Shown here: positions 2,824 through 61,305 of the stretch, one piece after another
How the letters are laid out: the number at the start of each line of letters is the position of its first letter
How positions within the stretch are numbered: the first letter of the stretch is position 1
DNA from: Hydrangea macrophylla
Taxonomy: Eukaryota; Streptophyta; Magnoliopsida; Cornales; Hydrangeaceae
Assembly: GCA_033977485.1 (NCBI GenBank)
Contig: CM066983.1
Span: forward strand, 62,181,010-62,245,009
DNA: 64,000 nt
Direction: 5' to 3'
Position numbers and translations under genes: made by a program
Notes under the pieces: generated by a model
Told to the model about the DNA's origin: nothing
Database searches by the model: none
The model's input: only the letters and a program-made list of their open reading frames with translations

Positions 2824-3056
2824 GAGTAGTCGACTGGACCATGGAGCAGTCGACTGGATCCCGTGGGGTTTAAACACTGAAAGTGAAAAGTAATAGGAGC
2901 AGTCGACTGGACCACTGTAGATTTTAGCTACTGATCCAAATAGTAACCAATGCAGTCGACTGGGTTCCCTGATCAGTCGACTGGACACCGATGAGAAATG
3001 TGAGTTTTGGTTTCTGCCAGGCACAGTCGACTGGATCCTAGCACAGTCGACTGAAC
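2824..3056 (+). repeat. CV1 palindrome array, CAGTCGACTG
   Basis: Seven copies of a palindrome centred on GTCGAC (starts of the GTCGAC core: 2829, 2849, 2902, 2955, 2976, 3026, 3046). Three pairs are 20, 21 and 20 bp apart. The pair-to-pair step is about 71-73 bp where measurable (2829 to 2902, 2955 to 3026). The palindrome is conserved while the spacers differ, so this is not a simple tandem repeat. It lies about 1.1 kb downstream of the TATA box, in the R/U5 part of the LTR. Confidence 0.9.
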
Positions 3057-5515
3057 CTCTGTTTTCAAAACTGTGTTCCTTTGGACAGGTTTCAATTGAA
3101 CAAAACTTTTTATAACTCTGATTTTAATGGATTTTAATAATGTTTTCCGATGCTATTTGACTTTAATGGAACTGGATAATCCTTGATGGCGTGCCACGTA
3201 TCCTTTTTTCGCACGTATCGGGATGGGTTGTGACATATAAGATCATCTAAGTAGTATCTTAGAGTACCTTGAATGACACTTGGAATATCTTAGGAGAAGC
3301 ATGAGAGATACAAGTACACCTTGAACATACTTTCAATTAAGAGAGAATTCTAGAGAGAGAGAATTATGAATTAGAATTCACTAAGCTAATCTTAAGATAA
3401 TTAGATTAGATGAATTAGACATCAATTGCCTCTATTAACTTCCATGGATGAGTAGACTAAACAACAACAGCCAATGTTCTATCTCTCTCCCACACACAGA
3501 TCCAACATCAACAAAACTACATGGAGGCCACCATCCCCCTTCCATTACAAACCTCGAGGAGCCGTTGAATCCCTTTCTCAGGTCATCTCTATCTCTAGGT
3601 CATAACTCTCTAGGGTTTTACAAATGTATATTGATTGTAGACCTCTGGATCTGAAATGGAGATGATGAATAGGTGTGCTCAGCAATGGCGACGCAAGCTT
3701 TGCAACCATTTTCTCTCTCAACAAAACTACATGGAGATGGTATCATATCCTTTCTTCATCTCAATCTATCTTCCTACTTCGATTTTGTGGCTTTTAGTTT
3801 TTAGGGTGTTTTGTGTGGTAGATATGTCTTTTCCTTTCTGATATGGTGTTTTCTCAAGTTCGGTAATTTTTTGTATTGTTTATACTCTTCCACTCTTGTT
3901 CAAACGGGGGCAATATTTTGATTACATGCATGGTAGAAGTTTAATCATGAATTCATAGACCTCACTAAATCGTACTGATTTCTGAGTCTATTCGTGATGA
4001 TTTAGGGCCTCCTTATGATGGAATCTGAACATAACTTTAAAATTCCCATTAAAAGCAGATTATTGGTATGTACAACTATGTTTATAGCAACTAAATCCCT
4101 ATCATCATCTGTGTTTTTTCCCTTGTTGTTCCTTTGGTTTTATGGGTGCTATTTGAGTTTCTGCGCTACATTTATGAGGTATCACTGCTGTGTAATACTC
4201 ATGCTTTGCATTTCCCAAAAAAAAGGGTTTCTTCCCTAATTTAAATCTCACTGTCCCTCTCTATGACTCCATTGTTTGGATGCTATTCTAAGTTCTAACA
4301 CCATATTTATCCAAATTCATTTGAAGCTATTATAGTGTGGAAGGAATTTTAAATTTAGGGGTCCCAATTAAAAAAGCTTTACCATTTGAAACTTCAATTA
4401 ATTTAATTTTTGTAGGTTTTTCTTAGCAACCAAACCGAACCCAATTGACTTTCTCGAATGTATCCAGTTGTGTATGACATTGGTTCTTGAAGAGTTCTTG
4501 AATGTATCTACTTTCCCCCCATATGGAGTGATTTTCTTTAATACATTCCATGTGCATGTAGGATGGGTCTTGATGAATGTATATGCTTGTTCCCTCGTGT
4601 CGTGAATTTATTATTTTAATTAGGCTTACTTTGGGTCACGAGTATTTGTGAGTGGAAGAAGATAAAACATAGAGGAAAAATACTTTTCTTTATTTGGTTA
4701 GTAAGGAAAATAATATGGAAATAGAAAGAAAAGAAAATAGAATGCAATTTGCAAAGTGAGCACAGCTCGTTTAGGTCCGTTCTATTGCATTGGTCAAGTA
4801 TTCGACCCCCATCCCTTCCCCTTGTAACCCAAAAAGAAAAAGAAAATATAACATAATTCGAGCATGGATGAAAACAATTAAAAAGTCACTTTTCTTGAGT
4901 TTCTTCTCATTTTTTAGAAAATTTTAACCTTATGTTGTTTGAGCATGGATAAAAATAATCGAAAATTTCAGCGGATGTCTTTTGGGACTAATTAATTTCA
5001 GCCTTCTTTGCTTCTGCCTTTGGTTAGATTGATTTAAGACTCGATAGATCAACTATTGGTATGTTGTAGTAAACATTCTTTATAATTGGGTTTCATTTTT
5101 CTCTCTTCACTTCGAATTTCATTCTCCTTCACTCTCATAATAAGTGCTTGAAACCATTTTTAAAAATAATTATGATTTAAATTATATCATTAAGAAACTT
5201 GATGAACTAATTGCTTTGAATACATAGTATATTGATTTGTATCAACAAGAAAAATGATGAACCTGTTCTTTTTTAATTCATTATGTGATACTCTAGTTAT
5301 GTGCTTAATTGTGCCTTCACAGTTCACATGATAGATAATGGAAGTTAAGTGACATTATACCCTGTGGCATCCAAATTCCAAATAGTCCTAAACATTTGTA
5401 ATTGTTCACTGTAATATTTTTGGAATTTCATCACCTTAGTATTGGCTAAGATGGAACATATGTTTTGCGCTTCCTTATGCAACTAAAATACGATTTGTGA
5501 ATTGTTTATCAATGG

Positions 5516-5638
5516 CACAGCATACGTGCACAACAGCACAGTATAGCATGTATGCACAGCAACAAAGCACACGTGCACAATAGCACAGCATATGTGCACA
5601 ACAGCATAGCACCCCTGTTTTTTTTTTTTTTTTTTTTA
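5516..5638. repeat. Imperfect CACAGCATACGTGCACAACAG repeats plus poly-T
   Basis: Three to four degenerate copies of a motif around CACAGCATACGTGCACAACAG, followed by a homopolymer T run of about 22 bases (5617-5638). It looks like microsatellite expansion in noncoding DNA. Confidence 0.75.
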
Positions 5639-6289
5639 TTTATGTTTCCTGGCTAAAAATCTAGACTTAAGTTCATTCGTTGCATTTTCAAATGGTTAGA
5701 CCATTTGGGAGGTTCATATGTGGGTCGAGTAAATCCGCTAATAGAATGGCCTAAGCTTTCCTGTACTTTGTTTCTATCAATCTTGACACTCAATAGAGGT
5801 TTAGCTTGTTTCTTGTTTCAGTTTTCAAACGTCTACAATATTATTTTGTATTTTTCTGATTCAAAAGCTTTTTTTTCGTTTCCTTTTTGCTTTCCTTGGT
5901 GTTTCAGAGTTTCACGTGAGATGAATAATTGTGAAAGTCTCCCTCCTTTATGTCCAGTTATGTGTATATTAGTGTAATTCTTTCGAAATGCTATGTCTTA
6001 CATGGTTCAATAAGTGAATTTCGATTGCGGGGATATGATATGGCTTGGAAAAGTGAATATAATTTGGTATTGAACTGTAGGAAATATGCTACTTGTATAG
6101 GTTATATCAAAACTTTTTTAATTGTGTTTATTTTTATTGTGGATGCATTTGAGATCTTACACACTTGTTACTTTCAATTACTTCTATGTTCAGTTTAGTT
6201 GGTGGAAAATAGAGGAGAAGGTTGAGGAAAATTTTATGATACATCCTAGGGGTTATGCATAAATTGCATGCATCATCCACTTAGTGATT

Positions 6290-9606: not shown

Positions 9607-10315
9607 ATAACTAATGCTAATTTTGTCACGCCCCGGAACAGCATAAATAGAGAAAAATAAATTTCCTTTATGGGTCCATAGAGAATGACTGGTGAATGTC
9701 ACTAACCTTTCACACCACGCAGTTCTAGATAATAGAACAAGAAAGAAACAACCCACATTAATATAAAGGAAACCTATTATATTACTAACATCAGAGTTAT
9801 TACAACAGTAAAGCTACAGCGGAAGTATATAAGGTTTGGAAGCAACATAAGCCCAAATACCAAATATAAGAACAATTAAACATAAATAACATAAACTATC
9901 TCTAGGTCTTCAGTTGGTGTAAACATCAGTGTTATAGTCCTCCCTGGTATAACCATCATCAGTGCGACCACCCTAGGTGAATTCTCCTCCTGGATAAAAA
10001 TTATCATTGTACGCTTCGTCACCTGAAAAATGAGGTACAGGATAGTCTGGACGGGGAAAAGTCCAGGCAATAAAGGTCGTCAGCTTACTGAAAGCTGAGT
10101 GAGTATAAACTAACAAGGTACCAGTTATATGAAGTAAACACAAGCTAATGAAAACACGAGTTAACATCTTATTATAACAGTAATATCTTGTTCCTTTATT
10201 CAACCTCGTAAACCAACCCTTATCGTCTTGTTAATCAAAGATCGAAATTCAACAATACTCTAACTGAATGAAACAGACTCAATCGTTAACAATAGGGATA
10301 CACCCTTATTCCGTC

Positions 10316-10630
10316 CACCGCTTTTAATAGCATATTACATAGCTCACCGCATGTCATGGACTCCACGTCAGTCCGTCCCCAGCTTTTAAGAAAAATGTAC
10401 ATGTTTAGCGCATTTCAGGGACATAATGTTTTGAACAAGGCATATCATCTATTGCCACGACTTAGCGTTATCTACCAAACATCCCAACTCACCGCTTTTA
10501 AGAGAATATGCACAGCTCACCACTTTTAAGAGCATATCATAGATTATCCGGTCTATCTTAGGAATACTTGGTCCAGCTCACCGCTTTTAAGAGCATATGC
10601 ATAGCTCACCGCTTTTAAGAGCATATCATG
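10316..10630 (-). repeat. CV2 LTR repeats (CACCGCTTTTAAGAGCATAT)
   Basis: At least five imperfect copies of CACCGCTTTTAAGAGCATAT (plus-strand reading) between 10316 and 10630, spaced about 35-80 bp. CV3 has a different repeat (CAGGGAGTGTCC) in the corresponding mid-LTR region, and CV1 has yet another. Confidence 0.8.
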
Positions 10631-10935
10631 ACCAAACGTCCATCCACGTACCATTCCCAGAACTTACCAAACCTACTTAAGTTACGTTCTAATAATGACA
10701 CATGACAATTCCCAATGTGGTCTGACAACTCTGATTAAAAGAACGGATAACGAACTCATACAAGATTCAACATATTACCCACGTTATTACTTTCATCCAT
10801 TGTTCTTTAATCATACTTAACTATGTTGTCACATTATCCCAGATTCATCAAAAATTGCATAACGGGTCCAAAACGAGAAACAAACAATCCAACCTCTTAT
10901 ATAATAAAAAGGCAAAAGAATCCATGTTCTACCCA

Positions 10936-11092
10936 TACCAATCGATTGGGATAAAAACTATAACAATCGATTGAGAATCATGGCAATCGATTGTTAATTT
11001 GTAATCGATTGGGATGTTAATCGATTGGATTTCCATCCAATCGATTGGGTCTAGATTGATGGCAATCGATTAGTAATTATGCCAATCAATTG
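10936..11092 (-). repeat. CV2 palindrome array A, CAATCGATTG
   Basis: Eight palindromes with core ATCGAT (starts 10941, 10966, 10986, 11004, 11020, 11040, 11065 and a variant ATCAAT at 11085). Steps are 25, 20, 18, 16, 20, 25 and 20 bp, and the spacers are unrelated to each other. In the transcription direction the array is about 400-560 bp downstream of the TATA box. It ends about 1.31 kb before the LTR's 3' end. Confidence 0.9.
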
Positions 11093-11259
11093 GCACTTCG
11101 TCTTCACCAGTAGATTGTAAAAATAGCATATATAAACGTCAAAATCATGCATTTAACACATCTGAGCTTCATAAAAACTTGTGTAGACATCCAATAAAGG
11201 GACCAAGTGAGTTAGAAACTCACCAAAGGTATGTTTGGCTTGTGTTTGTTGAAAAACCC

Positions 11260-11425
11260 CAAGCCTCTCTCTTTCTCTCCTCCTTCTCCTCTGTACAGCT
11301 CTCTTTCTCCTTCTCTTCTCCTTTCTTTTCTTCTTTTCCTCTTCTTCTTCTCTCCTTCTCCTCTGCTATGAGAGTGTGTGTGTGTGAGTGTATAGATATA
11401 GATATACGGATATATATATATAACA
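11260..11425 (-). repeat. CT/GT/AT microsatellite run
   Basis: About 110 bp of plus-strand CT-rich sequence, then (GT)n, then (AT)n. On the LTR's own strand the CT part is a GA-rich leader, common downstream of plant LTR promoters. The open frames here are compositional artefacts. Confidence 0.75.
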
Positions 11426-11488
11426 CACAAGATATGCATCTCTCTCTTTTAAGTTGTGTAAAATAGGCCCAAGGCCATAAATGAAGAC

Positions 11489-11498
11489 ATATATATAG
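11489..11498 (-). promoter_or_regulatory. CV2 LTR TATA box
   Basis: The minus strand reads CTATATATAT, about 345 bp into the LTR. Palindrome array B begins about 65 bp upstream of it. Confidence 0.5.
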
Positions 11499-11556
11499 AG
11501 TTGAGAGAGTGCCACACGTTTAAAGCTCAAGGAAAGAAGAAAACTTGTCACAGTAT

Positions 11557-11752
11557 ATGCCAATCAATTAGCATATATGTCAATCAATTGGTAATAGATA
11601 TTTGATGGCAATTGATTGAAAAGAATGGCAATCGATTGAGATGTTGCCACGTCATTACTTTTAGTCAGTATAATGGCAATCAATTGGGAATATGTCAATC
11701 GATTGGTACCCAAAAGTGTTAATCGATTGGGAACAAAGGCAATCTATTTGTA
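11557..11752 (-). repeat. CV2 palindrome array B, CAATCGATTG and variants
   Basis: Eight palindromes with core ATCGAT or one-base variants (ATCAAT, ATTGAT, ATCTAT), starting at 11563, 11583, 11611, 11631, 11679, 11698, 11722 and 11742. They form four pairs with steps of 20, 20, 19 and 20 bp. The array sits about 65-250 bp upstream of the TATA box. Variant units still keep the CAAT...ATTG arms. Confidence 0.85.
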
Positions 11753-11869
11753 TCTAAATCTCACCAATGAAAAGAAAAGTTTATATAAGTCTATGGAAAC
11801 GAAGTTTATTTATTAATACTCTCCAGAAATTCAGGGTATTACATCATCCACCACTTAACAAAAGATTTC

Positions 11870-16400: not shown

Positions 16401-17620
16401 GTAAAAAGGAAAACTCACTTTGATGGAGAAAATAGAAGAAGAAGACTACTTCTTCTCTTTCTCTCTCTATATTTTTCTAGAGTTTCTTCCTAAGCTCTCT
16501 CTAAGCTTCCATGTCTCATCTCTAAATGGAAGTAAATGGCTTCTTTTATAGGCAAAGGAGGGGTGGTAAATGGAGTTTTAAAAAGTTTAAAATGGTCTCC
16601 CATTGGTCCAAAATAAGCTGGGAACCAAATCTACGTCGTTTTGATTTATAATAAATCAAATTGCACCCCCAAAATAAATTGCAAAAACATATTGTTCTGG
16701 AGGAGAGTGCCGTGGCAGCACTGGGCCTGTGCCGCGGCGGCAGTGGGCCAGTGCCGCGGCGGCACTGCTCCTCCTTCGTCCAGATAATGCTGTTTAGGCC
16801 CCCAGAGGTTCCGATATTCCACAAAAGGCCCTATTTCGTCCAAAATTCACAGAAAATGCATACGAACTCCAAATTGAGGTTGTGATATACCGTTGGAAAG
16901 GTAATAGAGTCTAATTTATATAAAAAATAGTTTGGGAATAGGTCACTTTGAAAATTTTTGCGGTATTTGCGATAAAAACCGATTTGATCTCCTTTTTCGC
17001 CTTCGAAAATTCATAATAGACTCGTTTTAAATCTGAAAATTATGTGCAATATACCGTTGGAAAGCTATTGACCTCTAGTATCCATGAAAAATATTTGAAA
17101 ATTGTTACAGTGTCCCGGTTCTAAAGTCAAATTCTGGTCAAACTGGTCAAACCTGGGATTCCCGAGAAGTTTTGGAAACCTCCGGGAGTTCCCAGGAACT
17201 GACGTTTTCGCTCGATTTTCTTTTAAAACTCATTTTAATACTTTTCTCATGATCTAGAATGATTCTGGCGAATTCGGACGATTATGGTCAAACTTGGTCA
17301 AACTTGGTCAAACCTTGGTCAAACCGGTCAACGGGGATTTTCCGAGAACTTCCGGGACTTCCGGGGGTCTCTGGGAGCTGACGATTTCATTCGATTTTAC
17401 TTAAAAACTCGTTATATCATTTTTCTTGCGACGTAGCATGTTTCCAGAACTTTTGGTCCAAATCTGGGAGCTTTTGGGCTTTCAGGGGCATTTTGGTTAC
17501 TCTGAGCATTCTGAGAAATAGAATTGGCTTCCAGGAGTCTTTTTGAGTCTTTTCGATTATTGTGAACCACCAAGCTATGGGTCTCCTAAATCTGATAGCC
17601 GACAAAATGGGGTGTCTACA
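13435..17620 (-). mobile_element. Solo LTR SL-A of the Ogre/Tat-like family, inserted in CV2 pol
   Basis: 4186 bp bounded by TGTGGATACC and GGGTGTCTACA (plus-strand reading) and flanked by the perfect 5-bp duplication CTATG (13430-13434 and 17621-17625). Its sequence parallels the reverse complement of the Ogre LTRs. Shared features are the CCCGTC-GAAA-GACGGG hairpin near 13680-13697, the TTGACC array (about 17281-17335) and CCGCGG palindromes (16710, 16732, 16754). It is about 0.9 kb longer than the Ogre LTRs because of a diverged internal duplication: the GCTGTGAATAGTGGACAG block is at about 14363 and again at 15271. No coding region or second LTR is present, so it is a recombined solo LTR of a related subfamily. 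Confidence 0.88.
16700..16770 (-). repeat. SL-A CCGCGG palindrome module, three units
   Basis: Cores CCGTGG 16710, CCGCGG 16732 and CCGCGG 16754, each step exactly 22 bp, with spacer TGGGCC between them. It lies about 160-210 bp upstream of the TATA-like CTATAAAAG (minus strand, about 16543-16551). Confidence 0.85.
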
Positions 17621-18601: not shown

Positions 18602-18782
18602 CGGATCGATCCGCCCCTTTCACTTGGATCGATCCGCGCGTTTTATAGAACTCTCTGCCCAGAAATCCGAATGCGGATCGATCCGGATTTTTAACGCGGA
18701 TCGATCCGCGTGTTTCGCTGAAGATTCTAACGGCGAATTAAAGAAGCGGATCGATCCGGATTTTTGCCTTGGATCGATCCGC
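18602..18782 (+). repeat. Athila LTR palindrome array, GGATCGATCC
   Basis: Six copies of GGATCGATCC, mostly extended to CGGATCGATCCG, start at 18603, 18626, 18675, 18698, 18748 and 18771. They form three pairs, each with an exact 23-bp step, and the pairs repeat every 72-73 bp. The 13-bp spacers differ (gccccttt..., ggatttttaacgc, ggatttttgcctt) while the dyads do not. The array ends about 59 bp upstream of the TATA box. Confidence 0.93.
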
Positions 18783-19768: not shown

Positions 19769-19786
19769 TGGCGCCGTTGCCGGGGA
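19769..19786 (+). other. Athila primer binding site
   Basis: TGGCGCCGTTGCCGGGGA is the primer-site sequence characteristic of Athila-type elements (complement of the 3' end of tRNA-Asp). It lies 28 bp after the end of the LTR. Confidence 0.85.
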
Positions 19787-19914
19787 TTGGCATTGGTAAC
19801 AACCTTAGGTCGCTTAGTTTCTAATTATAGTGCTTTTGCTTTTAATCTTCGTTGCTTTCTTGTTGAGTGTCTTTGAAGGAGTAGCCTTTAAGTGAAAATC
19901 GATAGCTTCTCACA

Positions 19915-22677
19915 ATGTCAAATCCGAGCAACGCAGGTATGACTAACGCCTTTGCAGTTAATTCTAATGATAGTTCTAGTAGTAGTAGTAGTGGGTCGTT
20001 TTGGCGGCCTCCGACCACATCCTCACCATCATTCACTCAAAAATCGCACAGTACCAGCCACCGAGAGCCGGTAGTTGATGCATTTTCGGATCATGCTACG
20101 TTTGCCACAGAGGGCGAAACTCCCATGGATCGATTCCATCGGGAGCAATGGGGTCAACATAACCCCGCTCCTCCACCCAGGTACCCGCCGCATCAACCAC
20201 CTCCTTTTCAACATCATTACCCCCCTCCACCTCCGCAAATGGATCAAACCTTTGGGAGAACGATCTGGGATTACCTTCAACCCGAGACCGTGTCTTCCCC
20301 ATCTTGCATAACATTCCCGTCCATTGCGGGGGTGTTTCGATTTAAACCAAGAATGATCAATCTCTTACCCAATTTTCATGGGCTAGAGAACGAGGACCCC
20401 TACAAGCATATTAGGGAGTATGAGGACATATGTGGGACGTTTGAACAACAAAGATGCACACCCGAGCTCATAAGGCTCAAATTGTTCACATTTTCCCTCA
20501 AGGATAGGGCGAAAGATTGGTTAGTGACCCTACCCCCAAATTCCATAGGCTCATGGCCGGAACTCCAAAAGCAATTCTATAAGGAGTTTTTCCCCATGCA
20601 CAAAACACAAGCTTTGGTCAAACAAATTCAAAATTTCTCCCAGGGAGAGCACGAGACCTTTGCTGAGTGTTGGTTGAGATTCAAGGATCTCCTTAGGAAA
20701 TGCCCGCACCATGGTTTTGACAAATTCCGTCAAATTTCCATTTGTTATGGGGGGTTACAACCCAATACAAAACAATTGATCAAAACCATGTGCTCCGGGA
20801 GTTTTTTAACTCTAGAAGCCGAGCAAGCCGAAGCCCATTTAGAATATGTCCATGAAACTTCGCGTGGGTGGGGTACATCTAACCCTCATGACCGCACACC
20901 ACCGGTCACTGTAGCCCCTTTGAATCACAGCCTCTGTCAAGTGTCAAATGAAGCGGGTTCCATTTCCGAACTCACTAGAAAAGTAGAGGCTTTGGAATCT
21001 CAAAAGGGCACCATTGGACCCAATCCTCTCCCGATCCTCGCACCGATCAATCCTTTGCATTGCTACTTATGCTATGATCCGGAGCACGCAACCAATGAAT
21101 GCCCCGTCCTTCCTATCCTCCAAGCACAAGCTTTGGAGCAAGCATGTGCACTTGGGATGAACATTAGGCCTAGATTCAATCCTTCCCAAAATGATGCCTA
21201 CAATCCTCCCGGAAGGTGGAGTGCTCCGGGGCACAATTACCATAACAATAAAGGGGCAACAGTAGTACCAAATGCTCCCCCACAACCATACTATCCTCAT
21301 CAACCGCCTCCACCACCTTATACCCCTCCGAACTTTGGTCCACCAAACCCTCAATCCCAAGGGCCACATTTCACCCAAAATCAAGGGGCGCATCAACATT
21401 CAACCCCTTATGTGCCCCCTCACAAGAAGAGTTTCAAAGATCCTAATCATGGTGGCTTGTCCCAAAGAATGAGCCAACTTGAGCAATCTATCCAAGCGAT
21501 GCAATCATCGCACGCTCAAAGCATGCAAGCGTTGCAAGCTCAATTGGCTCAATTACTCCAAAATCAACAAGTTATTGACAAAGGAAAGCTTCTGGCGCAA
21601 CCATTTCAAAATCCGAAAGGTCAAGGGACTAATGGAGCCTCAAATTCCAATATCGAACATCTAAAAGGAATCACCACTCTTCGAAGTGGAAAAATTGTGG
21701 ACAACAAGGTCCAAAAACCTCCCCAAGAACCACAAGTTAGCTATGACCCGGGTAGAGGAGAGACCGAACTCAATGAGGGGGACTCATTACCCCCTAATGT
21801 TGAAGACTTGGAGGGGGACTTGTCAAAGGCCCCCGACTTCATGGACCAAGAGTTTTTGAATCCCGCTCCCCCATTTCCTCAAAGGCTTAAGAAAAAGGCC
21901 GAGAATAACAAGAATCATGAATTTTTGGAATTGTTCAACAAAGTGGAAATCAATATCCCTCTTTTGGAAGCCATTAAACAAGTCCCAGCCTATGCAAAAT
22001 TTCTTAAAGACCTTTGCACTGTCAAAAGGAAACTCAATGTTAAGAAGAGTGCTTATATGGCCGCACATGCGAGCTCCGTTATTCTTAACGAAGTTCCTCC
22101 AAAATATAAGGATCCCGGTTGTCCTACTATAGCATGTGTGATTGGACAACACCAGATCGACAGAGAACTCCTTGATTTAGGAGCTAGTGTCAATCTACTT
22201 CCTTATTCGGTGTACGTCCAATTAGGCCTCGACGAACTTAAAGAGACTCGTGTCACTTTACAGATGGCCGACCGCTCGGTCAAGATGCCACGAGGTATAA
22301 TAGAGGATGTTATTGTTCAAGTTGGTAACTTCTACTATCCGGTGGATTTTATTGTACTTGATACACAACCGGTCGTGAACGAGCAATCGCAAATTCTTAT
22401 CATCTTAGGTCGCCCATTCCTCGCTACCGTGAATGCATTGATTAATTGTAGGAATGGCCTTATACGGTTAACATTCGGAAACATGACGGTGGATGTGAAT
22501 ATCTTCTCACTCTTTAAGCAACCCGCCCTCGAAGAGGAGGACGGTGATGGGATTTATGAAATCTCTCTCATTGATTCGTTGGTGCATAATTTTTTCAGTT
22601 TTCTAGTGATTCCGATGTTAATGATTCTTGCATCACTTCTTCTCTTGATCATACTTATGTGCTTAATGATAATATAA
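19915..22677 (+). CDS. Athila gag-protease
   Basis: Long open frame encoding the capsid/nucleocapsid precursor and aspartic protease that assemble and mature the intracellular particle. Visible parts: a Ser-rich N-terminus and Pro/His-rich segment (about residues 85-115), the retrotransposon gag domain (about 150-300, including RLKLFTFSLKDRAKDWL), a zinc knuckle CYLCYDPEHATNEC (about 382-395), a Pro/Gln-rich linker with a Gln-rich helix (about 520-560), and the protease with active-site DLGAS (about 752) and ILGRPFL. The start ATG follows the primer site by about 130 bp. The last roughly 35 codons are hydrophobic and out of family; they come from a frameshift near 22590, after which the true frame continues in phase 0 into pol. 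Confidence 0.9.
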   Translation: MSNPSNAGMTNAFAVNSNDSSSSSSSGSFWRPPTTSSPSFTQKSHSTSHREPVVDAFSDHATFATEGETPMDRFHREQWGQHNPAPPPRYPPHQPPPFQHHYPPPPPQMDQTFGRTIWDYLQPETVSSPSCITFPSIAGVFRFKPRMINLLPNFHGLENEDPYKHIREYEDICGTFEQQRCTPELIRLKLFTFSLKDRAKDWLVTLPPNSIGSWPELQKQFYKEFFPMHKTQALVKQIQNFSQGEHETFAECWLRFKDLLRKCPHHGFDKFRQISICYGGLQPNTKQLIKTMCSGSFLTLEAEQAEAHLEYVHETSRGWGTSNPHDRTPPVTVAPLNHSLCQVSNEAGSISELTRKVEALESQKGTIGPNPLPILAPINPLHCYLCYDPEHATNECPVLPILQAQALEQACALGMNIRPRFNPSQNDAYNPPGRWSAPGHNYHNNKGATVVPNAPPQPYYPHQPPPPPYTPPNFGPPNPQSQGPHFTQNQGAHQHSTPYVPPHKKSFKDPNHGGLSQRMSQLEQSIQAMQSSHAQSMQALQAQLAQLLQNQQVIDKGKLLAQPFQNPKGQGTNGASNSNIEHLKGITTLRSGKIVDNKVQKPPQEPQVSYDPGRGETELNEGDSLPPNVEDLEGDLSKAPDFMDQEFLNPAPPFPQRLKKKAENNKNHEFLELFNKVEINIPLLEAIKQVPAYAKFLKDLCTVKRKLNVKKSAYMAAHASSVILNEVPPKYKDPGCPTIACVIGQHQIDRELLDLGASVNLLPYSVYVQLGLDELKETRVTLQMADRSVKMPRGIIEDVIVQVGNFYYPVDFIVLDTQPVVNEQSQILIILGRPFLATVNALINCRNGLIRLTFGNMTVDVNIFSLFKQPALEEEDGDGIYEISLIDSLVHNFFSFLVIPMLMILASLLLLIILMCLMII

Positions 22678-27644: not shown

Positions 27645-27698
27645 TTGACCGGTTTGACCAAGGTTTGACTAGGTTTGACCAAGTTTGACCAAGTTTGA
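27645..27698 (+). promoter_or_regulatory. TTGACC (W-box) array in the Ogre LTR
   Basis: TTGAC starts at 27645, 27654, 27664, 27674 and 27684, with a TTGAT variant at 27694: a nearly exact 10-bp period. TTGAC(C/T) is the W-box core bound by plant WRKY factors. Two or three more copies follow at about 27836-27860. The array recurs in the 3' LTR (about 44668-44735) and, inverted, in both solo LTRs (about 17281-17335, 53633-53690). Confidence 0.75.
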
Positions 27699-38467: not shown

Positions 38468-38536
38468 CCTTTTCTTTCAAAACTTTGGCCCGAACTACGT
38501 TGGACCTGATCCCCGCTCGGGGGTACGTAGGCAGAC
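38386..38536 (+). repeat. Ogre CTACGT...ACGTAG conserved stem motif, two copies
   Basis: GAACTACG...GGTACGTAGGCA-type units at about 38388-38432 and 38492-38534, with a third at about 44177-44222 just before the 3' LTR. Each has AACTACG(T) and (T)ACGTAGG about 25-30 nt apart, able to pair as a stem, with a GACCTGATTCC-like loop. The first copy overlaps the end of the integrase frame. Confidence 0.75.
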
Positions 38537-39160
38537 TTTCAAAAAGAAAAGAAGGATGGCTCGCTAGGTCGAAAATCCGAAAGAACACCTAGGCAAAAAT
38601 TAGAGCTAAATCCAAAGTGAGCAATAACAAAAGAGAGAAAATAGCTCGCCAGGCCGCCTCCTTGGTGCCTGGGCAAAAATTATGAGTATGTGGGAAATAA
38701 AGTCGCGGTCCTTACCATAACCCGGAAATCACCTTCCACACTAGGGGCAAACTTCGGCCACTCGCCTCGTTTGCCTGAACCTCTTCTAAACTAGGGGCAA
38801 ATGTCGGTCATCTACCTCGTTTGCCTCACAACCATACATATCCCAAACTAGGGGCAAACTTCGGCCACCCGCCTCGTTTGCCTCCAATAAACCTAGCATG
38901 CCCAAGCAAGTACCAAAAGCAATGACTAATTAAAGTCTCGGCTACAAAATATTTTTAGAAAGTTAAAATGCATAAAATAAGATTTCCAAAGTAACCGAGG
39001 TTCACTGATAAACAAACTTTGAATATTACATAAGCAGGAATAATTAAAGAAATAAAAATCTCTCAAAAAGCAATCACACATGTTCAAAGACACTTGGAGG
39101 AATGAGCAGAATCAGTCAGGTCTAGTTTTATCTTTGCGTCTTTTATTTCTTCAAAGATCT
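38537..39160 (+). repeat. Ogre 3' noncoding part with GGGGCAAAC hairpin repeats
   Basis: Three copies of a 36-bp unit start at 38741, 38791 and 38848 (CTAGGGGCAAACTTCGGCCA ... CTCGTTTGCCT). In each, GGCAAAC and GTTTGCC can pair as a stem. AGGGGCAAAC also occurs at the element's polypurine tract (44369-44379). The remaining sequence is unassigned. Confidence 0.75.
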
Positions 39161-40159: not shown

Positions 40160-40498
40160 ATTTTCTGTCGCGACTCTAGCAAAAATCGAAATTTCGGCAG
40201 CACCTCTCCGCTTTACGGATTATCCCACCTGCAAGGCGAAAGCACTCACTATCACAAAACTGCCCATCGCAGTAACATCCAACCATCACAGTGTACATAT
40301 ATCAAATAAAAACAAGCACACAACTGCGCCCCCAAGCCAGAAGATATCCGGCCTAGGAGGCAAAACACCATAATACTCTGTCAAAAGGTCACAAATTGTG
40401 CTACACATCATCCTACACTGTCCGAATAATCATATCCCCAGTACAACCCAATCGAAAGCAGAAAAAGAAAATAAAATAAAATGCCCTCTTGGGAGGCC

Positions 40499-42683: not shown

Positions 42684-42876
42684 GGATCTACAAGAAAAAT
42701 GGAAGTTCAAGTTAAACTTTCTTCTTGAAAATTTGGGCAAACCAAAACACCAATCAAAAATCTGACTACAGGGAAAGATTACTCACCTGGGCGCGCACAA
42801 GTTGCGCTTTGATGAATTTTGGCTTCAAAAACACCTCAAAGTGGCCAAGAATGAGCTTCAAGAGCTCAATAACTCG

Positions 42877-42926
42877 AAATATAAGAAGATGAAGTCCGTC
42901 GCGGCAGTGGCCCAGTGCGCCGCGAC
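42877..42926 (-). promoter_or_regulatory. Palindrome module and TATA-like site upstream of the antisense PMD gene
   Basis: GTCGCGGC (42898-42905) and GCCGCGAC (42919-42926) form an inverted pair 21 bp apart around the AGTGGCCCAGTGC spacer that also links CCGCGG units in the Ogre LTR. On the minus strand a TATA-like CTTATATTT (42877-42885) follows immediately, then the noncoding exon and leader intron. This looks like a promoter built from the LTR module; the TATA box is weak. Confidence 0.5.
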
Positions 42927-43196
42927 ACTGCTCCCCGTGGGCCCCGCGTCGCTCCGTTTTGCTCCGTTTCGCCCCGTTCTGGCCCGTTTTGGCCTTTTTT
43001 AGCCCGTTTTTGGCCCCGATCAGCCCCGATGGCCCATTCCAGTCAAGATTTATGAGGTTTTTACCCCAAGCAGATTAAATGTTGTCAGAACTACCTCCAG
43101 CAGGCAAAAACTGGGAAAAATCGATTCCCGAAGACCCGAATCGGCCATTTCAGGATAACCGTCGCAAATTTTGATCAAACACGAGAATTCTGGTAA
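42927..43196. other. GC-rich Ogre 3' noncoding sequence
   Basis: Contains reiterated GCTCCGTTT / GCCCCGTT / GGCCCGTTTT motifs (42949-43015) and no coding frame. The antisense PMD gene starts just to its left. Confidence 0.6.
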
Positions 43197-43745
43197 CGGA
43201 TCCTGGTTTTTAGCTAATGCACCGAGTAATCGAGAAAAGAGATACCCTGGGAACCCTGCGTCATCCCCTGAGGACAAAAGCAGACCGATGCCAGCTCCCA
43301 GAAGCCCTGACCGGCTCTCTTGGATTGAGCGCCGAAAGATTTGATCAACCGTGAGAGGTTCAGAGACGGATCCTGATTCCTGATCAAGAAAAGAGACTCC
43401 CCGAGAACCCTGCATCATCCCCCGAGGACAAAAGCAGACCGATGCCAGCTCCCAGAAGCCCTGACCGGCTCTCTTGGATTGAGCGCCGAAAGATTTGATC
43501 AACCGCGAGAGGTTCAGAGACGGATCCTGGTTCCTGATCAAGAAAAGAGATTCCCCGAGAACCCTGCATCATCCCCCGAGGACAGAAGCAGACCGATGCC
43601 AGCTCCCAGAAGCCCTGACCGGCTCTCTTGGATTGTGCCCCGAAAGTTTTTGATCAACCGTGAGAGGTTCAGAGATGGATCCTGGTTCCCGATCAAGAAA
43701 AGAGATTCCCCGAGAACACCTACATCATCCCCAAGGGTAAAAGAT
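43197..43745 (+). repeat. Ogre 154-bp tandem repeats
   Basis: About three and a half copies of a 154-bp unit: GATGCCAGCTCCCAGAAGCC starts at 43287, 43441 and 43595, and GGATCCTGGTTCCTGATC recurs at the same step. The copies are very similar. Satellite-like arrays in this position are characteristic of Tat/Ogre elements and can seed genomic satellites. Confidence 0.9.
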
Positions 43746-44365
43746 ACTACCACTAGCCAGAACTGATTCCTGAAAGTCGGCCGTCAGGAACAATCAGAGC
43801 ATCGCCCAAATCCAGATCTCCTGATTATCAAGAATTACCACAAGATCCCTCGGTCACCTTTGGCTATCGTCTTCTAAACAAAGCGCATCTGAACTGTCTC
43901 ACTCGTTCCAGAAGTTTACCCCTAGACCCGGAGTCTTCTAAACTCCGATGTCCTTATCCGAGTCACCCACCGCATCACAGTTGCAAACACTAGCACAATA
44001 CCAGCCCACTCGGAGTGGCACACCCCGCAGCATTTGCTCATACTAGAGTCATAACACTAGACATGATAGGACTCATGACACAATTCACATCACATCCATG
44101 CATTGCATATCACTCTTATTGCATAGCATCCGCCTGATTGTTGTGCATGTGCATGTGTGATTTATTCCTTTGAGCTCCGAACTACGTCCTGGTCTGATTC
44201 CACTTGGGATACGTAGGCAGCTCACGTAGAGCACGACCAGCACTAACCTCATCATCATTGCATCTTTTGCAACGTTTTTATCCTAAATCTATAGCCTCCA
44301 AAAGAACTGTCTCTACAAAACTTTGGCACTCGCTTGCGACATGCGTTGCCTCGCAAGTTCATGCC
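43746..44365 (+). other. Ogre 3' noncoding sequence before the polypurine tract
   Basis: No coding frame of note. Includes GCATTGCAT-type motifs (about 44100-44125), GTGCATGTGCATGTG (44143-44158) and the third CTACGT...ACGTAG motif (44177-44222). Confidence 0.6.
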
Positions 44366-44379
44366 ACAGAGGGGCAAAC
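44366..44379 (+). other. Ogre polypurine tract
   Basis: ACAGAGGGGCAAAC lies directly against the TGTAGACACC start of the 3' LTR. Confidence 0.8.
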
Positions 44380-47300
44380 TGTAGACACCCCATTTTGTCG
44401 GCTATCAGATTTAGGAGACCCATAGCTTGGTGGTTCACAATGATCGTAAAAGACTCAAAAGGACTCCTGAAAGTCAGCTATCTCTCAGAATGCTCAGAAT
44501 GACCAAAATGCCCCTGAAAGCCCAAAAATTCCCAGATTTGGTCCCGAAGTTCTGAAAACATGCTATGTCGTAAGAAAAGCGATAAAAAAGAGTTTTAAAG
44601 GGAAGTCAGATGAAATCGTCGGCTCCCAGAGACCCCCGGAAGTCCCGGAAGTTCCCAGAAAGTCCCCGTTGACCGGTTTGACCAAGGTTTGACTAGGTTT
44701 GACCAAGGTTTGACCAAGTTTGACCAAGTTTGACCGAAGTCATCCGAATTCACCAAAATCATCTTAATTCATGGGAAAAGTGTTAAAATAAGTTCCAAAA
44801 GGAAATCGAGCGAAAACGTCAGCTTCCGGGAACTCCCGGAGGTTTCTAGAACTTCCCGGGAATCCCAAGTTTGACCAGTTTGACCAAAATTTGACTTTGG
44901 AACCGGGGCGCTGAAACAATTTTCAAATATTTTTCATAGATACTAGAGGTCAATAGCTTTCCAACGGTATATCGCACATAATTCCTGGATTCAAAACGAA
45001 TTTATTACGAATTTCCGAAGGCGAAAAAGACGATCAAATCGGCTTTTATCGCAAATACCGCAAAACTTTTCAAAGTGACCTGTCCCCAAAATATTTTTTA
45101 TGTAAAGTAGACTCCATTACCTTTCCAACGGTATATCACAACCTCAATTTGGAGTTCGTATGCATTTTCTGTGAATTTCGGACGAAATAGGGCCTTTTCG
45201 CGAATACCGGAACTTCGGGGGGCCTAAACAGCATTATCTGGACGAAGGGAGGAGCAGTGCCGCCGCGGCACTCCCCTCCAGAACAGTGTATTTTTGTAAT
45301 TTCTTTTGTGGTCCCATTTTGATTAATTAAAAACCAAAACGACATAGTTTTATGATTTCAGATGTTTGGAGCCAATGGGAGTACTTTCTAAATCCCAAAA
45401 ACACCCCAAGTTGGCCTATATAAACACCCCATTACTCCTCATTTTAGGGGAGTCAAATGTGAGTTTTGGAAAATTTTGGGAGAGAAAGTTGTAGAGATAA
45501 GGTTAGAGTAGAGAGAAAAGAAGCTTTCTTCTTTGATTTTTCATAACAAAAGTGAGTTCTTACTTTGTTTTTTACTTCATTACTTCCATTAATTTCAACA
45601 TTCAATACTCCCAACCACCATTTTAGTGAGCATTCAAGAGAGTGGGAGCTTCTTCCATGTCTAGTGTCAATACATATGAGTGAAATACCAATCTACAAGT
45701 CTCATGCTTCATGAATATCATCTATTGATCATCATTTACTTGCTTATTTATTTATTGTTCATCTCTTCTTATCCCATTTCTTTTTTTTATTTTCTTTATT
45801 TACTTACTAGTTCATCATCATCTAAGTGATGACATGAAGTTTGGGGTGAGTGAATCCTTATGGATAGTAGCTCTTGACCTCAAAAACATGTTTGATAGAT
45901 GATGATCATAACCTCAATACTTCCAAAGTATTCTTGGAATGTATTGAAGTTATGTTCAAAAATAAAATAAATCTCTCCAACAATCTTGGAGGTTCTTGAT
46001 GATGAGTTTGATGTTGACATTTTGAGTGGCTATAATCCTTGTTGAGTATTGAAAATATGCTTTCAAAACATCTATTTCAAAACTCCTCTCAATCCCTCTC
46101 ACTTTGGTTTCAAGAAACAAAACCTTGTTTTCTCCAAAATCTCCAAAACAATGAGTCAAAACAGTGAGTGAGTCGAGTTAAAAGATTTCTCTAGAACTCA
46201 ATACTCAATATATGAATTCAAGGCCACTTGGAAAGTCTTCCTAACTCATTGGAGAACACCCATGATTTTTGGTTTGACTTGGAAGTACTTGGAAATGGTC
46301 CATTTGGATCCCAACATTCCTTCCAAACATTCTGTTTTTGCTGTCACAGCAGCTAGGGCCACTTCCAACCTCTTTTACAGAAAACTTTTCCAAAAAGAGT
46401 GGTCCTAACTTATTTTTCCCTTAAAATTCAATGTCTTAGGGAACTTTCGGTATAAAATGGGCCCTTATATCATTCTTTTTCATTTTCTAAGATTTTCTAA
46501 CATTCCAGTCAACAGTACGAACTCTGTTTCTGAGTGACCTGTGTTGTTTATATGTTTTCTCTCAATCTGTGGTAGCTATTCAAGATTGGCTTTTTGGGTT
46601 TTATTCTAGACACAATAAGGAACATCTCCATAAAAAATCATGCATTGAAAACATTCCTAACCCCTCTTTTCAAATTACCAAAGATGATGCTACTGTTCTG
46701 TCCACTATTCACAGAAAGCATACCTTAACTTTCATTCTTTGTTTTGATGCTTATATGCATTCCAAATTAGCTCATATCTTAGGAAGTAGTTCATACTACA
46801 TTTGTATACATCCCATGTTGATTTAATCCATTCATTCATACATATTTTAGGCTCCTAAGTCATTTTAGAAATCCATGTACACAAAACACACTACAACCTT
46901 TGCACATTTTAGATATATACATTGCATTCATGCAAGGTTTGGGGTTTTTGTAACTCTTAATCCAAGGAGATTATAAGGAATGAACTTGATCACACATTCA
47001 TGCTTCCCCTTTGATCTAATCATCCTTTCTCATCCGTCCCGGGGATTGAGAGATCTTCTTTTCTCAAAGAATAACATGCATCATACTAGCTTGTTAAGCA
47101 TATTTTGATTTTTTTGTTTATTTGTTTCAAGAACAATTCATGTCCCCCTTTAGATTAGGAAAACTTGATTAATTGATATATGATTAGACGATTTTTCCTA
47201 GGTTTATTTGTGTGATATTTGGCTTAGATCTTATGAATGATATCTTATTTTTAGATCTTTCATTTCAAGTTTCTTATGTGATGTAATATACTATCGTAGT

Positions 47301-47618
47301 ATTATTTGTCGAACCATACCTAGTATAAGATGATTATTTGGATGCTAATTGAGGCCCGTCGAAAGACGGGGCGAGTTGAGGGTGTTTTAGTCGCGACAAA
47401 GGCTCCTTCCTCTCTCGTACCAAAACCCCGAACCAAGTTCTTTGGTTATGAAGGGCCGGTGCCCTTATCCGTTTGGGTGAGTCAAAATTAGGTTTCTTGG
47501 TTCCTTAAAGACCAAGTGACGACTCTGTATCTGTTTTCAACAGACCTTTTCTCTTTCCTTGATTCAAAATCAAACGAATTTTAAAACATAACAAAGCGGT
47601 GGAAACCCGGTGTCCACA
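44380..47618 (+). repeat. Ogre 3' LTR
   Basis: 3239 bp, nearly identical to the 5' LTR and followed by the CCACC target copy. It keeps a single CCGCGG unit (about 45257-45271) and an extra TTGACC repeat (about 44700-44710), and lacks 22 bp near 47216. The low divergence points to a recent insertion. Confidence 0.95.
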
Positions 47619-52800: not shown

Positions 52801-53979
52801 TGGAAGAAGAAGACTACTTCTTCTCTTTCTCTCTCTATATTTCCCTAGAGTTTCTTTCTAAGCTTTCTCTAAGCTTCCATGTCTCTCCCCTAAATGAAAG
52901 TAAATGGCTTCTTTTATAGGCAAAGGAGGGGTGGTAAATGGAGTTTTAAAGAGTTTAAAATGGTCTCCCATTGGTCCAAAATAAGCTGGGAATCAAAGCT
53001 ATGTCGTTTTGGTTTTTAATTAATCAAAATGGGACCACAAACTTAATTACAAAAATACACTGTTCTGGGGGGGAGTGCCGCGGCGGCACTGGGCCAGTGC
53101 CGCGGCGGCAGTGCTCCTCCCTTCGTCTGGATAATGCTGTTTAGGCCCCCTGAAGTTCCGGTATTCGCGAAAAGGCCCTATTTCGTCCGAAATTCACAGA
53201 AAATGCGTACGAACTCCAAATTGAGGTTATGATATACCGTTGGAAAGGTAATGGAGTCTACATTACATAAAAAATAGTTCGGGGATAGGTCACCTTGAAA
53301 AGTTTTTCGGTATTCGCTATAAAGGCTGATTTGATCGCCTTTTTCGCCTTTGAAAATTCATAATAAATTCGTTTTAAATCCAGAAATTACGTACGATATA
53401 CCATTGGAAAGCTATTGACCTCTAGTATCCATGAAAAATGTTTGAAAATTGTTTTGGTTCCCAGGTTCCAAAGTCAAATTCTGGTCAAACTGGTCAAACC
53501 TGGGATTCCCGGGAAGTTCTGGAAACCTCCGGGAGTTCCCATGAGCTGACGTTCTCTCTCGATTTTCTTTTGGAACTTGTTTTAACACTTATCTCATGAT
53601 TTAAAATGATTCTGGTGAATTCGGACGATTTCGGTCAAACTTGGTCAAACTTGGTCAAACCTAGTCAAACCTTGGTCAAACCGGTCAACGGGGACTTTCC
53701 GGGAAATTCCGGGACTTCCGGGGGTATCTGGGAGCTGACGATTTCACCCGATTTCTCTTAGAAACTCATTTTATCGCTTTTCTTACGACATAGCATGTTT
53801 ATCAGAACTTTGGGACCAAATCTGGGAGTTTTCGGGCTTTTAGGGGCATTTTGGTCATTTTGAGCATTCTGAGAGATAGAGCTGACTTCCAGGAGTCCTT
53901 TTGAGTCTTTTACGATCATTGTGAACCACCAAGCTATGGGTCTCCTAAATCTGATAGCCGACAAAATGGGGTGTCTACA
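49812..53979 (-). mobile_element. Solo LTR SL-B of the Ogre/Tat-like family, inserted in the CV3 LTR
   Basis: 4168 bp from TGTGGACACG to GGGGTGTCTACA, flanked by GCCGC (49807-49811 and 53980-53984). The empty site is visible in the CV3 5' LTR (about 61279-61284), which confirms the insertion directly. It is close to SL-A in length and order, including the diverged 0.9-kb internal duplication (GCTGTGAATAGTGGACAG at about 50730 and 51635). It has two CCGCGG units (53078, 53100), the TTGACC array (about 53633-53690) and the GAAA hairpin (about 50051-50066). The target is the GC-rich palindrome cluster of CV3. Confidence 0.93.
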
Positions 53980-55566: not shown

Positions 55567-55595
55567 CAGAATTTCGTCCCCGAAATCAAGACTAA

Positions 55596-59248: not shown

Positions 59249-59936
59249 TCTATGCATGATAGTGATAGTAGAATGAGAAACATGCATGCAACAGTACTAT
59301 GAAGTAATTTAAATGACTACAATTTTCAAAGGAGTATATATCACTATATCACATACTCGTATTATAACATAAGCATACAATAAAATCCAATTATGTAATA
59401 TATATCAAGTACACATAATATACTAAACACGTATTCGAACTAGGGTTGTCTAATAGCAAAGAGGTCGTATTCTTATTCTTATTCTCCATACTCTGGGCTG
59501 TGGGCCATGCTGACTGTTTCCGAGATTTGACTCAGGAAGTTGGTCAGTGCCTAAGCTATTAATGAGGGCTATGGTATGCTTTAACTCCTTAGAAACTCGG
59601 CTACTATCCGTCTGTAGGGGCATCATAAATTATGGCCATCTCGGCTAATTCTAAATGGATACGTCTGAAAATATATGGAAATTGCTATCATTTTTGTCGA
59701 TGTGACAAGACAATCGTGTAATCATCTCTATGACGAAACCAACCTAGAACTTAGTTTCTGAACTAAGGATAATCCGTACTAAACTAAAACTGGAACTTAG
59801 TTGTTCGGTAAATATGAGCTTGGTAAATCAGACTATTCTTAGAGAAACTTGGTTGTATAGCTTAGTAAAACTTAAAGGTAACCTGTGTCACTAGTCTGTG
59901 GCGTGAATAACTGAGCCTGGTCAATCTAGGAAACAT
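59249..59936 (-). other. CV3 leader
   Basis: Untranslated region between primer site and gag; no other frame of note. Confidence 0.7.
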
Positions 59937-59949
59937 GGCTCTGATACCA
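59937..59949 (-). other. CV3 primer binding site (initiator tRNA-Met type)
   Basis: The minus strand reads TGGTATCAGAGCC, the classic complement of the initiator Met tRNA 3' end. It is separated by 8 bp from the LTR end at 59958. Confidence 0.9.
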
Positions 59950-61267
59950 CTAAATCCTGTCACGCCCCGACGTAGCATAAATATGGAAAGCGTTTAATTT
60001 CCTTTATGGACCCGTAGGTCGCGACAGTTTGAAGGATCGATTCCGTCCCAAACATCGAACAACGTAAAACCATTAATCAGAGTAGAGCAATCAAGGCTTA
60101 TAAAATTTTTCTAACTTATTACATATTACAGTACGGGGTCTACTAAGGCACAAGCCGCCTTAAAACAAAACAATAACTTAGTGTCTATTACAGTTATCCT
60201 TATTACAAACCCAGTTATAACTTAAAGACATATAATCATTAAGCAAGTTTCTCATTCCAAAAGCCGCCATTCTCAGTTAGCGTAGTCATAAGTTTCCTCC
60301 TGATTATAACCTGAAAAGCCTGAACACGAATGTCCAGGACACATCAACGCCGTCAGCTTCAAGAAGCTGGTGAGTATTAAAAACATAACTTTGAATGTAA
60401 AACATACTCATTTACCTTTTTCCCATTTCCATTTAAATCCACAAGTTTATATTTAAGATAAAGAGCTCGTTTAGAAAACAACCACAACATTATTTAAAAG
60501 ATAAATTCACACATATGTGACCGTGTATGAGAATGATGCACCATCTCATCTGACCGACTCTTTTCTCTCGACAAAACCCAACAACCCACTATCCTACTCC
60601 TGGTATCTTTGAAACACTAAGATAGCCACACTTTAGCAACGGGGCGCCAGGGAGTGTCCAGTTTGCCTCACACTTTGGTCCGGAGTACCAGGGAGTGTCC
60701 ATTGCCTCACACTTTGAATACCCTAACCGCCATGCAAATACTGGAGCAACCTCACGCAGTATCCAGACTCGAGTATCAGGGAGTGTCCGTAGGCCACACT
60801 TTAGCACTACCATGGGTGCCAGTGAGTGTCCAAGTTCGGCGTCACACACTTTAACGCTTCCATGGGCGTCAGGGAGTGTCCATATTTGCCACCGTCGCAT
60901 TTCAAAGATACCCTCGCCGTAACCTCAACCATAACCACAACCACAACTGCAAATCTCAATCTCAATCTCAATCTCATACTCTTTTCACACTGACCATTAC
61001 TCTTTCCACACTGACTGACACCCACATGCATGCACAACAGACTCCATATGAATGTCATCAAACTTTAAACATAAAGGAATTCACAGAATTATAGAAATAA
61101 CGCGCGTACGGGGATTGAAAATTCGTAATTCATTGCCTTAATCATTTTAAACATAACTAATAGCATTCTGTGTTAATAAATTTCCAAACAGGACCTTAAC
61201 AGTACTTTAAATTTCATCCCAAACAGTCCCTGACCACAAAACAAGCAAAACTAGAAACTGCCGGAAA

Positions 61268-61305
61268 TCGCGCGCGCAGGCCGCTCGCGCGAGTCGCTCG
61301 CGCAG
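61268..61305 (-). repeat. CV3 GC palindrome cluster (CTCGCGCGAG)
   Basis: TCGCGCGCGC (61268-61277), CTCGCGCGAG (61284-61293) and the near copy CTCGCGCAG (61297-61305). Denser than the arrays of the other families. It lies about 1.31 kb before the LTR 3' end, the same distance as array A of CV2. In the 3' LTR this cluster is the insertion site of SL-B. Confidence 0.7.

Follow-up and report, generated by a model that had tools for sequence, protein, structure and literature searches.

A window of 64,000 nucleotides of Hydrangea macrophylla DNA (positions 62181010–62245009 of contig C2, from an assembly of 2.22 Gb in 19 contigs) consists mostly of nested Ty3/gypsy retrotransposons, and short perfect palindromes recur in and near their long terminal repeats (LTRs) as arrays that each use essentially one word. 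Two chromoviruses are represented by their 3′ ends, CV1 and, on the minus strand, CV2; besides these and a third chromovirus, CV3, the window holds an Athila element, a 20-kb Ogre element, and two Ogre solo LTRs. The arrays are homotypic, their words are better conserved than the spacers between them, and several lie close to a TATA box. Judged from sequence, they are probably clusters of binding sites for proteins that act as symmetric dimers, are likely encoded by the host, and control LTR transcription.

The five words proposed in an earlier, sequence-only reading of the window are all present where it had named them: CAGTCGACTG in CV1, CAATCGATTG in CV2, GGATCGATCC in Athila, GTGCCGCCGCGGCAC in Ogre, and CTCGCGCGAG in CV3. 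Homotypic arrays are found in CV1, CV2, and Athila, and a short tandem in Ogre, whereas CTCGCGCGAG is single in each CV3 LTR, and CV3 was rejected as an array carrier in the window. The CV2 word has six exact copies (10939–11705) among 17 sites with up to two mismatches, the Athila word has 13 exact copies in two arrays, and the Ogre word is present in all four Ogre LTRs (3, 1, 3, and 2 array copies, variants included). Across the loci read (designated by L numbers), there is one main word per family, typically in 5–19 copies per LTR (1–3 in Ogre). Contrary to what had been supposed, the words are not unrelated between families: all five contain CpG, and those of CV1, CV2, and Athila all fit RRTCGAYY. 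The cores TCGA, CCGG, and CGCG contain CpG, and CCG/CGG is confined to the words of Ogre and CGACCGGTCG, the latter a word found de novo in a genome sample.

In terms of position, the proposed placement in or near LTRs is seen around the promoters of Athila, Ogre, and CV2. The Athila LTR array lies ~60–235 bp upstream of a TATA box (TATATATA at 18839), the Ogre 5′ LTR array lies ~150–200 bp upstream of its own (TATATAAA at ~28426), and CV2 has one array on each side. The second Athila array, by contrast, is outside the LTRs, between pol and the third open reading frame (ORF3), and the CV1 array, though within an LTR, is ~1.1 kb downstream of the TATA box TATAAATA and 180–410 bp from the LTR end.

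Palindrome arrays and retrotransposon features in the window (arrays first; positions are those of the window)
Feature	Position	Strand	Remarks
CV1 array, CAGTCGACTG	2827..3053		6 exact (2847–3053), 1 single-mismatch site
CV2 array 1, upstream of TATA box	11561..11749		8 sites with ≤2 mismatches to CAATCGATTG
CV2 array 2, transcribed LTR	10939..11092		8 sites with ≤1 mismatch; ~400 bp downstream of TATA box
Athila LTR array	18603..18780		6 exact GGATCGATCC; spacing 23/49/23/50/23
Athila internal array, between pol and ORF3	25922..26171		7 exact plus 1 near-exact GGATCGATCC
Ogre 5′ LTR array	28222..28280		3 copies of 22-bp unit, two with exact GTGCCGCCGCGGCAC
Ogre 3′ LTR motif	45257..45271		one copy
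Array in Ogre solo LTR 13434–17620	16706..16767		three copies, one decayed
Motifs in Ogre solo LTR 49812–53979	53075..53109		two copies
CV3 word CTCGCGCGAG	61284..61293 and 53984–53993		one per LTR, mid-LTR
CV1 chromovirus 3′ LTR (TGTCA...TGACA)	1200..3235	+	TATA box TATAAATA at 1722–1729
CV2 chromovirus LTR (TGTAATACCC...GGGGCGTGACA)	9624..11843	−	TATA about 11497–11490
Athila gag-protease-RT-RNaseH-integrase	19906..25654	+	Pfam matches in 3 of 4 ORFs
Athila primer-binding site	19769..19786	+	marks 5′ LTR end (~19765)
Athila third ORF, broken	26822..27356	+	further match past Ogre insertion, from 47619
Ogre/Tat element	27357..47618	+	LTRs 27357–30649 and 44380–47618; 5-bp target duplication CCACC
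Ogre solo LTR	13434–17620	−	
Ogre solo LTR inside CV3 LTR	49812–53979	−	target duplication GCGGC
CV3 chromovirus 5′ LTR, 2.9 kb	59958..62849	−	TATA ~62131–62124
CV3 other LTR copy	48485–49811 plus 53980–55551		split by Ogre solo LTR

The excess of such arrays over dinucleotide-shuffled sequence, which the earlier reading had anticipated, is clear. Three or more identical non-AT palindromes within 300 bp were found in the window for four 8-bp and three 10-bp words, versus none in 40 shuffles. A genome sample of 200 kb, taken as 20 stretches of 10 kb each at fixed grid points over 3 of the 19 contigs and hence not a random draw, contained 21 such clusters for 8-bp words and eight for 10-bp words, whereas 10 shuffles gave 0.0 per 200 kb. 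Several of the 21 represent a single array in overlapping registers (TCGATCGA/GATCGATC and CGCGCGCG/GCGCGCGC), and the set includes TGAATTCA, TAGATCTA, and GAAATTTC (L026 and L036). A detector that accepts one mismatch and demands at least five sites picked up the arrays of CV1, CV2, and Athila, further arrays in several of the other stretches, and a few low-complexity words, and nothing from three shuffles. Its hits included GTATATATAC (L032) and AGAAATTTCT (L036), both of which may have arisen in some other way. A separate hit in the window, CTTTTAAAAG at 10321–10621, is a 28-bp tandem that may likewise have another origin.

Genome-wide specificity was assessed by counting pairs, defined as the same word twice with 5–35 bases between (15–45 bp apart); pairs rather than elements are counted, and counts for the repeats are lower bounds. 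The control was the reversed word, which is itself palindromic and of the same composition. Pairs of CAGTCGACTG number at least 59,243 (reversed control, 0), those of CAATCGATTG at least 124,085 (control, 1), those of GGATCGATCC at least 12,992 (control, 1), and those of CGACCGGTCG at least 3,254 (control, 2). The CV2 word with its outer base pair swapped (GAATCGATTC) gives 12 pairs versus 124,085, and mixed pairs of the CV1 and CV2 words amount to 157 + 140 = 297. Because the reversed, swapped, and mixed counts are so low, the arrays are largely homotypic and the outer letters of the words matter. A CGACCGGTCG array is present in L031, in a carrier of Tat or chromovirus type.

The proposal that dyads are kept while spacers vary holds both within the window arrays and between related LTRs. 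Within the arrays, the dyad positions carry 1.3–2 bits of information and the flanks mostly less; on its right side, the CV1 word tends to be followed by GGAY. Between LTRs, alignments were made of the first listed hits on contig C1 together with the window, comprising six CV2-type LTRs (four of them in a closer subset), six CV1-type LTRs, and two from a second group bearing CAGTCGACTG; L048, L051, and L015–L022 were left out, and sites were marked in one sequence per pair with up to one mismatch. For the six CV2-type, four closer CV2-type, CV1-type, and second-group LTRs, respectively, identity is 0.97, 0.96, 0.92, and 0.94 at the outer eight bases of the word; 0.85, 0.83, 0.92, and 0.83 at the central CpG; 0.66, 0.76, 0.55, and 0.40 in the array spacers; and 0.71, 0.82, 0.78, and 0.79 in the rest of the LTR. 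Ogre provides no dyad-versus-spacer evidence, because its 22-bp tandem unit includes the spacer.

These values bear on the notion that the arrays are functionless by-products of tandem duplication, which we consider very improbable. Duplication has clearly contributed in places: the Athila internal array is built largely of 72-bp units that are 81–97% alike, the Ogre array is a 22-bp tandem of one to three copies, and the second cluster of L062, a CV2-type locus, is partly a 45-bp tandem. However, words that are 92–97% identical between spacers of 40–76% identity disfavor this explanation for CV1 and CV2, the families aligned; moreover, each array uses mostly one word among many possible, and the CV2 arrays stand on both sides of the TATA box.

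The changes within sites are also informative. All eight single-mismatch sites in the CV2 arrays of the window are C-to-T or G-to-A, four of them at the central CpG, the pattern expected of methylated, ageing copies. Four further CV2-type loci were picked by protein match, namely the three lowest-identity listed matches without a stop (L060–L062) and one with a stop (L063). Exact sites account for 16 of 18 in L060, 17 of 19 in L061, and 18 of 19 in L062.

Spacing is looser than the words themselves. Steps are 20–21 and 50–53 bp in CV1, 16–28 plus 48 bp in CV2, 23 and 49–50 bp in Athila, and 22 bp in Ogre, and nearest neighbors of the CV1, CV2, and Athila words are mostly 19–25 bp apart. The suggested stepping by two helical turns (about 20–23 bp) is not general, as steps vary and 10.5-bp phasing is borderline in CV1 (p = 0.012 for a period of 10.5 bp and 0.047 when periods of 9.5–12 are considered) and not significant in CV2, Athila, or TCGATCGA. 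Preferred distances nevertheless exist. Among the matches listed, GGATCGATCC has spacers of 10–13 bases in all 50 places, though 5–35 were allowed, and neighboring places of CGACCGGTCG are 72 bp apart in five of eight cases, 81 bp in two, and 22 bp in one; CV2 has a distance class at 45–49 bp. The CV1 and Athila arrays, built of different words, have in common a dyad distance class of ~70–74 bp beside the 20–23 bp step. Paired clusters recur in CV2-type loci, 474–506 bp apart in L044–L046 and L060–L062 and 324 bp apart in L043. One such cluster in L062 (minus, 880–1200) has 14 sites at alternating 20/25 bp and is in part a 45-bp tandem, which looks recent.

A word that is constant within a family and different between families describes the relatives in part. 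Words are conserved among related LTRs and arrays exceed the shuffled expectation, so that neither outcome named in the earlier reading as refuting it was observed, but CTCGCGCGAG occurs in two lineages and CAGTCGACTG in two LTR groups. In L027, of the Athila lineage (reverse transcriptase, RT, 71% identical), an array of CTCGCGCGAG with three exact copies follows pol. In L037, the flanks align with the CV3 LTR at 70–80%, and seven CTCGCGCGAG sites with one mismatch each form a decayed array; an assignment of L037 to a Tat element was rejected, and the array belongs to a CV3-type LTR. A strict rule of one family, one unique word was rejected because CV3-type LTRs have CTCGCGCGAG in common with the Athila family to which L027 belongs. 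A further member of the Athila lineage, L034 (RNaseH-integrase 70%), has an array of TCGATCGA at 5720–5822, after pol and before an ORF at 6826–7683, and the word recurs near ~8245, in a part that can be aligned with L035. As the window, L027, and L034 differ in word, the word changes within the Athila lineage while the post-pol array stays. A TCGATCGA cluster is also seen in L029 (1–100), where it adjoins an ORF with reverse-transcriptase matches, a second ORF with RNase H matches lying nearby; the carrier may be a long interspersed nuclear element.

Homotypic arrays, dyad conservation, and promoter position are consistent with the family-matched dimeric factors that had been proposed. The factor could be encoded by the element itself, recognizing its own word in the manner of VANC and opposing silencing or driving transcription, an alternative that appears rather improbable. 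The arrays resemble VANC motif arrays in being homotypic and different between families, although VANC motifs are direct rather than palindromic in the available text of that study (PMC5735166). Retand (Tat) elements are described, in the portion of the report available, as having post-pol antisense ORFs with a TRP28 domain that may bind DNA, and family-specific tandem repeats (PMC11963269). In the present elements, the Athila ORF3 is preceded, in both the window and L034, by an array made of the respective family's word. It weakly matches PF20167, "putative plant transposon protein" (27060–27311, E = 2.9e-4; 47585–48010, E = 8.4e-11; both under the Pfam gathering score), and on sequence grounds is a candidate word-binding factor for the Athila lineage. 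The ORF of L034, an Athila-type third ORF downstream of its array, has a lysine/arginine basic stretch after the PF20167-like region and may encode a nuclear protein. For the CV2 type, an element-encoded match is not indicated. In L028 (LTR start 4687, LTR end ~7157, primer-binding site 7166, gag 7846), whose LTR is 76% identical to that of CV2 over 595 bp, there is no plus-strand ORF of 80 aa or more between the primer-binding site and gag, and CV2-type copies, with an open frame of up to ~1512–1517 aa around the chromodomain region, yield the most pairs.

A role at the RNA level is unlikely in our estimation but accounts for some features. The words would pair within or between transcripts, as hairpins feeding small RNAs or as dimerization signals of genomic RNA, with family words ensuring self-pairing. 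The CV1 array and CV2 cluster 2 fall within the 5′ leader, and a small-RNA excess at the palindrome clusters of maize Sireviruses is cited in the accessible text of PMC10760457. On the other hand, the LTR arrays of Athila and Ogre, like CV2 cluster 1, are upstream of the TATA box and hence outside the leader, and a target of host-driven small RNAs would be expected to be lost rather than conserved.

Several observations weigh against regulation through dimer binding. Each of the 11 arrays tested is predicted to fold strongly (z = −3.2 to −12.2, versus +1.8 to −2.4 in four controls), as an RNA role would have it; these z-scores are not independent evidence, because identical palindromes set in an array will always fold. 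Rather than upstream of the TATA box, the CV1 array lies in the R/U5 part of the LTR, which is transcribed; helical phasing is absent from CV2, and the two LTR groups that bear CAGTCGACTG do not align with one another. The LTR alignments may favor the register of the repeated word. L063, beside its stop-containing protein match, has four sites, each with one mismatch, and its LTR aligns with the others in part, so that decay is not the sole reading of this locus. Finally, two plus-strand stop-to-stop stretches, one of 131 and one of 85 aa, are located in the L028 LTR at 4978–5370, and an unusual product from them is conceivable.

Binding by dimeric proteins nonetheless explains the dyad symmetry, the word specificity, the freedom of the spacers, and the promoter position together. 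Sequence-specific proteins would bind the words as symmetric dimers and, once bound, would control transcription from the LTR, presumably by activating it; the Athila internal array perhaps controls transcription of the third ORF. Transcription factors of the host are the likeliest candidates, since the CV2-type element of L028 is without an accessory ORF between primer-binding site and gag and one word serves two unrelated lineages. Given the central CpG in the words of CV1, CV2, and Athila and in CGACCGGTCG and CTCGCGCGAG, binding is likely a target of CG methylation, and we infer that it is likely methylation sensitive.

A broader interpretation, which we put forward tentatively as a possibility, is an address code. 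Families in several lineages would each have settled on one CpG-centered palindrome from a limited vocabulary, used almost exclusively in homotypic form, and would thereby partition host dimeric factors into niches of tissue or stage, or else avoid cross-silencing, with word switches marking new families. If this is true, the CpG center would let DNA methylation switch each address.

The elements themselves are assigned as follows. CV1 and CV2 are truncated in the window, and their lineage is assigned by similarity: tblastn relates the integrase and chromodomain-region ORFs upstream of the CV1 LTR (3–569 and 720–1154) to chromovirus ORFs, and the CV2 LTR ends resemble those of CV3. The CV3 LTR is followed by TGGTATCAGAGCC, which we take to be a primer-binding site of the tRNA-iMet type; that of Athila is presumably of the tRNA-Asp type. 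Domains are ordered gag, RT, RNaseH, and integrase last in Athila and Ogre, and gag, protease, RT, RNaseH, and SH3_Tf2-1/chromo in CV3, a content and order that do not fit a Sirevirus (Ty1/copia) element. The two CV3 LTRs (within 48485–62849) are ~99% identical, indicating a young insertion; with one of them split by the Ogre solo LTR, blast alone suggests separate repeats. Compared with known proteins, the CV3 RT region had relatives of up to 71% identity over at least 90% of the query among the best 120 of 7,990 matches, the named ones being plant proteins. Protein scans of viral and of bacterial and archaeal contigs found no relatives, and word-pair patterns matched five, seven, and two stretches of viral contigs, of which the first five, when inspected, did not look like plant retrotransposons. 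Ogre is flanked on both sides by pieces matching the Athila third ORF. Its antisense ORFs (39161–42344, minus) match PF10536, the plant mobile domain (best E = 7e-27), as well as DUF7745 and represent a PMD-like gene, either captured or antisense. In its internal region, upstream of the 3′ LTR, is a 154-bp tandem repeat of 3.3 copies (43229–43732).

The nesting of these elements touches on another DNA-level role for the words, as an integrase, recombination, nucleosome, or insertion-target signal, which is extremely improbable. One Ogre solo LTR is inserted a few base pairs from the CTCGCGCGAG palindrome of CV3, with the target duplication GCGGC, and nested plant LTR retrotransposons are said to prefer palindromes in work cited in the available text of PMC12477314. 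This is a single event, however, the arrays are not at LTR ends, and conservation serves the carrier, not the incoming element.

That chromoviruses, Athila, and Ogre, all of them Ty3/gypsy, share this design, with exact word pairs exceeding 10^5 in a single genome, suggests a general mode of transcription control in plant retrotransposons. The words are ready-made baits for binding factors, being short and exact with control pairs nearly absent, and they open to test the question of why regulators are not shared between related families. Among known systems, CACTA transposons have subterminal arrays of TNPA sites, in which a protein of the element binds short motifs that are repeated; they are DNA transposons, whereas the elements here are Ty3/gypsy. 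CACTA and VANDAL elements had been put forward as known parallels; the palindromic repeated motifs of Sireviruses are closer, as far as the available text describes them (PMC2829016). VANDAL elements likewise have family-specific arrays of short motifs in noncoding regions, with copies gained and lost, but in the accessible parts of these reports they are DNA transposons whose motif, YAGTATTAY, is nonpalindromic, has one orientation, and is recognized by the TE-encoded VANC, unlike the perfect palindromes here (PMC5735166, PMC10398659). Retand and Grande (Tat), which have accessory ORFs between pol and the 3′ LTR, share with the present elements Ty3/gypsy membership and family-specific repeats after pol; their tandem repeats are not presented, in the available portion of that paper, as palindromic boxes or as part of the LTR promoter (PMC11963269).

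The palindromic-array design has been known since 2010 in Ty1/copia Sireviruses, and its occurrence in Ty3/gypsy elements appears to be new; among the open-license papers listed by searches aimed at it, none reports it there by title or abstract start, which does not imply its absence from print, and among the matches listed for the words themselves no title concerned retrotransposons. As described in the available text of Bousios et al. (2010, PMC2829016), 13 Sireviruses have palindromic repeated motifs in the LTR upstream of TATA and upstream of ENV, with at least eight boxes per element, mostly in the upper half of the LTR, a word that differs between most elements, and a CGG-CCG core in 12 of 13; the motifs are called Sirevirus-specific against other Ty1/copia elements. 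In copy number, CV2-type loci (18–19 sites with up to one mismatch per stretch in L060–L062) and Athila (6 + 7 exact) are comparable, CV1 has six exact copies plus one in one LTR, and Ogre (1–3 per LTR) and CV3 (one per LTR) differ. A cluster shortly upstream of TATA is shared by Athila, Ogre, and CV2 cluster 1, not by CV1, and the cluster upstream of ENV has its counterpart only in Athila, where an array precedes the third ORF, known here as a PF20167-like ORF, in the window and in L034. Maize Sirevirus LTRs also have clustered palindromes in the cis region with strong predicted secondary structure, as in the arrays here, and in the accessible text these are linked to small RNAs (PMC10760457). 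Unlike the Ty1/copia Sireviruses with their CGG-CCG cores, the carriers here are Ty3/gypsy, three families have TCGA cores, and the CV1 and second CV2 arrays are in the transcribed LTR. The Sirevirus Tnd-1 motif ACAATCGATTGT, present eight times, nevertheless contains the CV2 word (PMC2829016).

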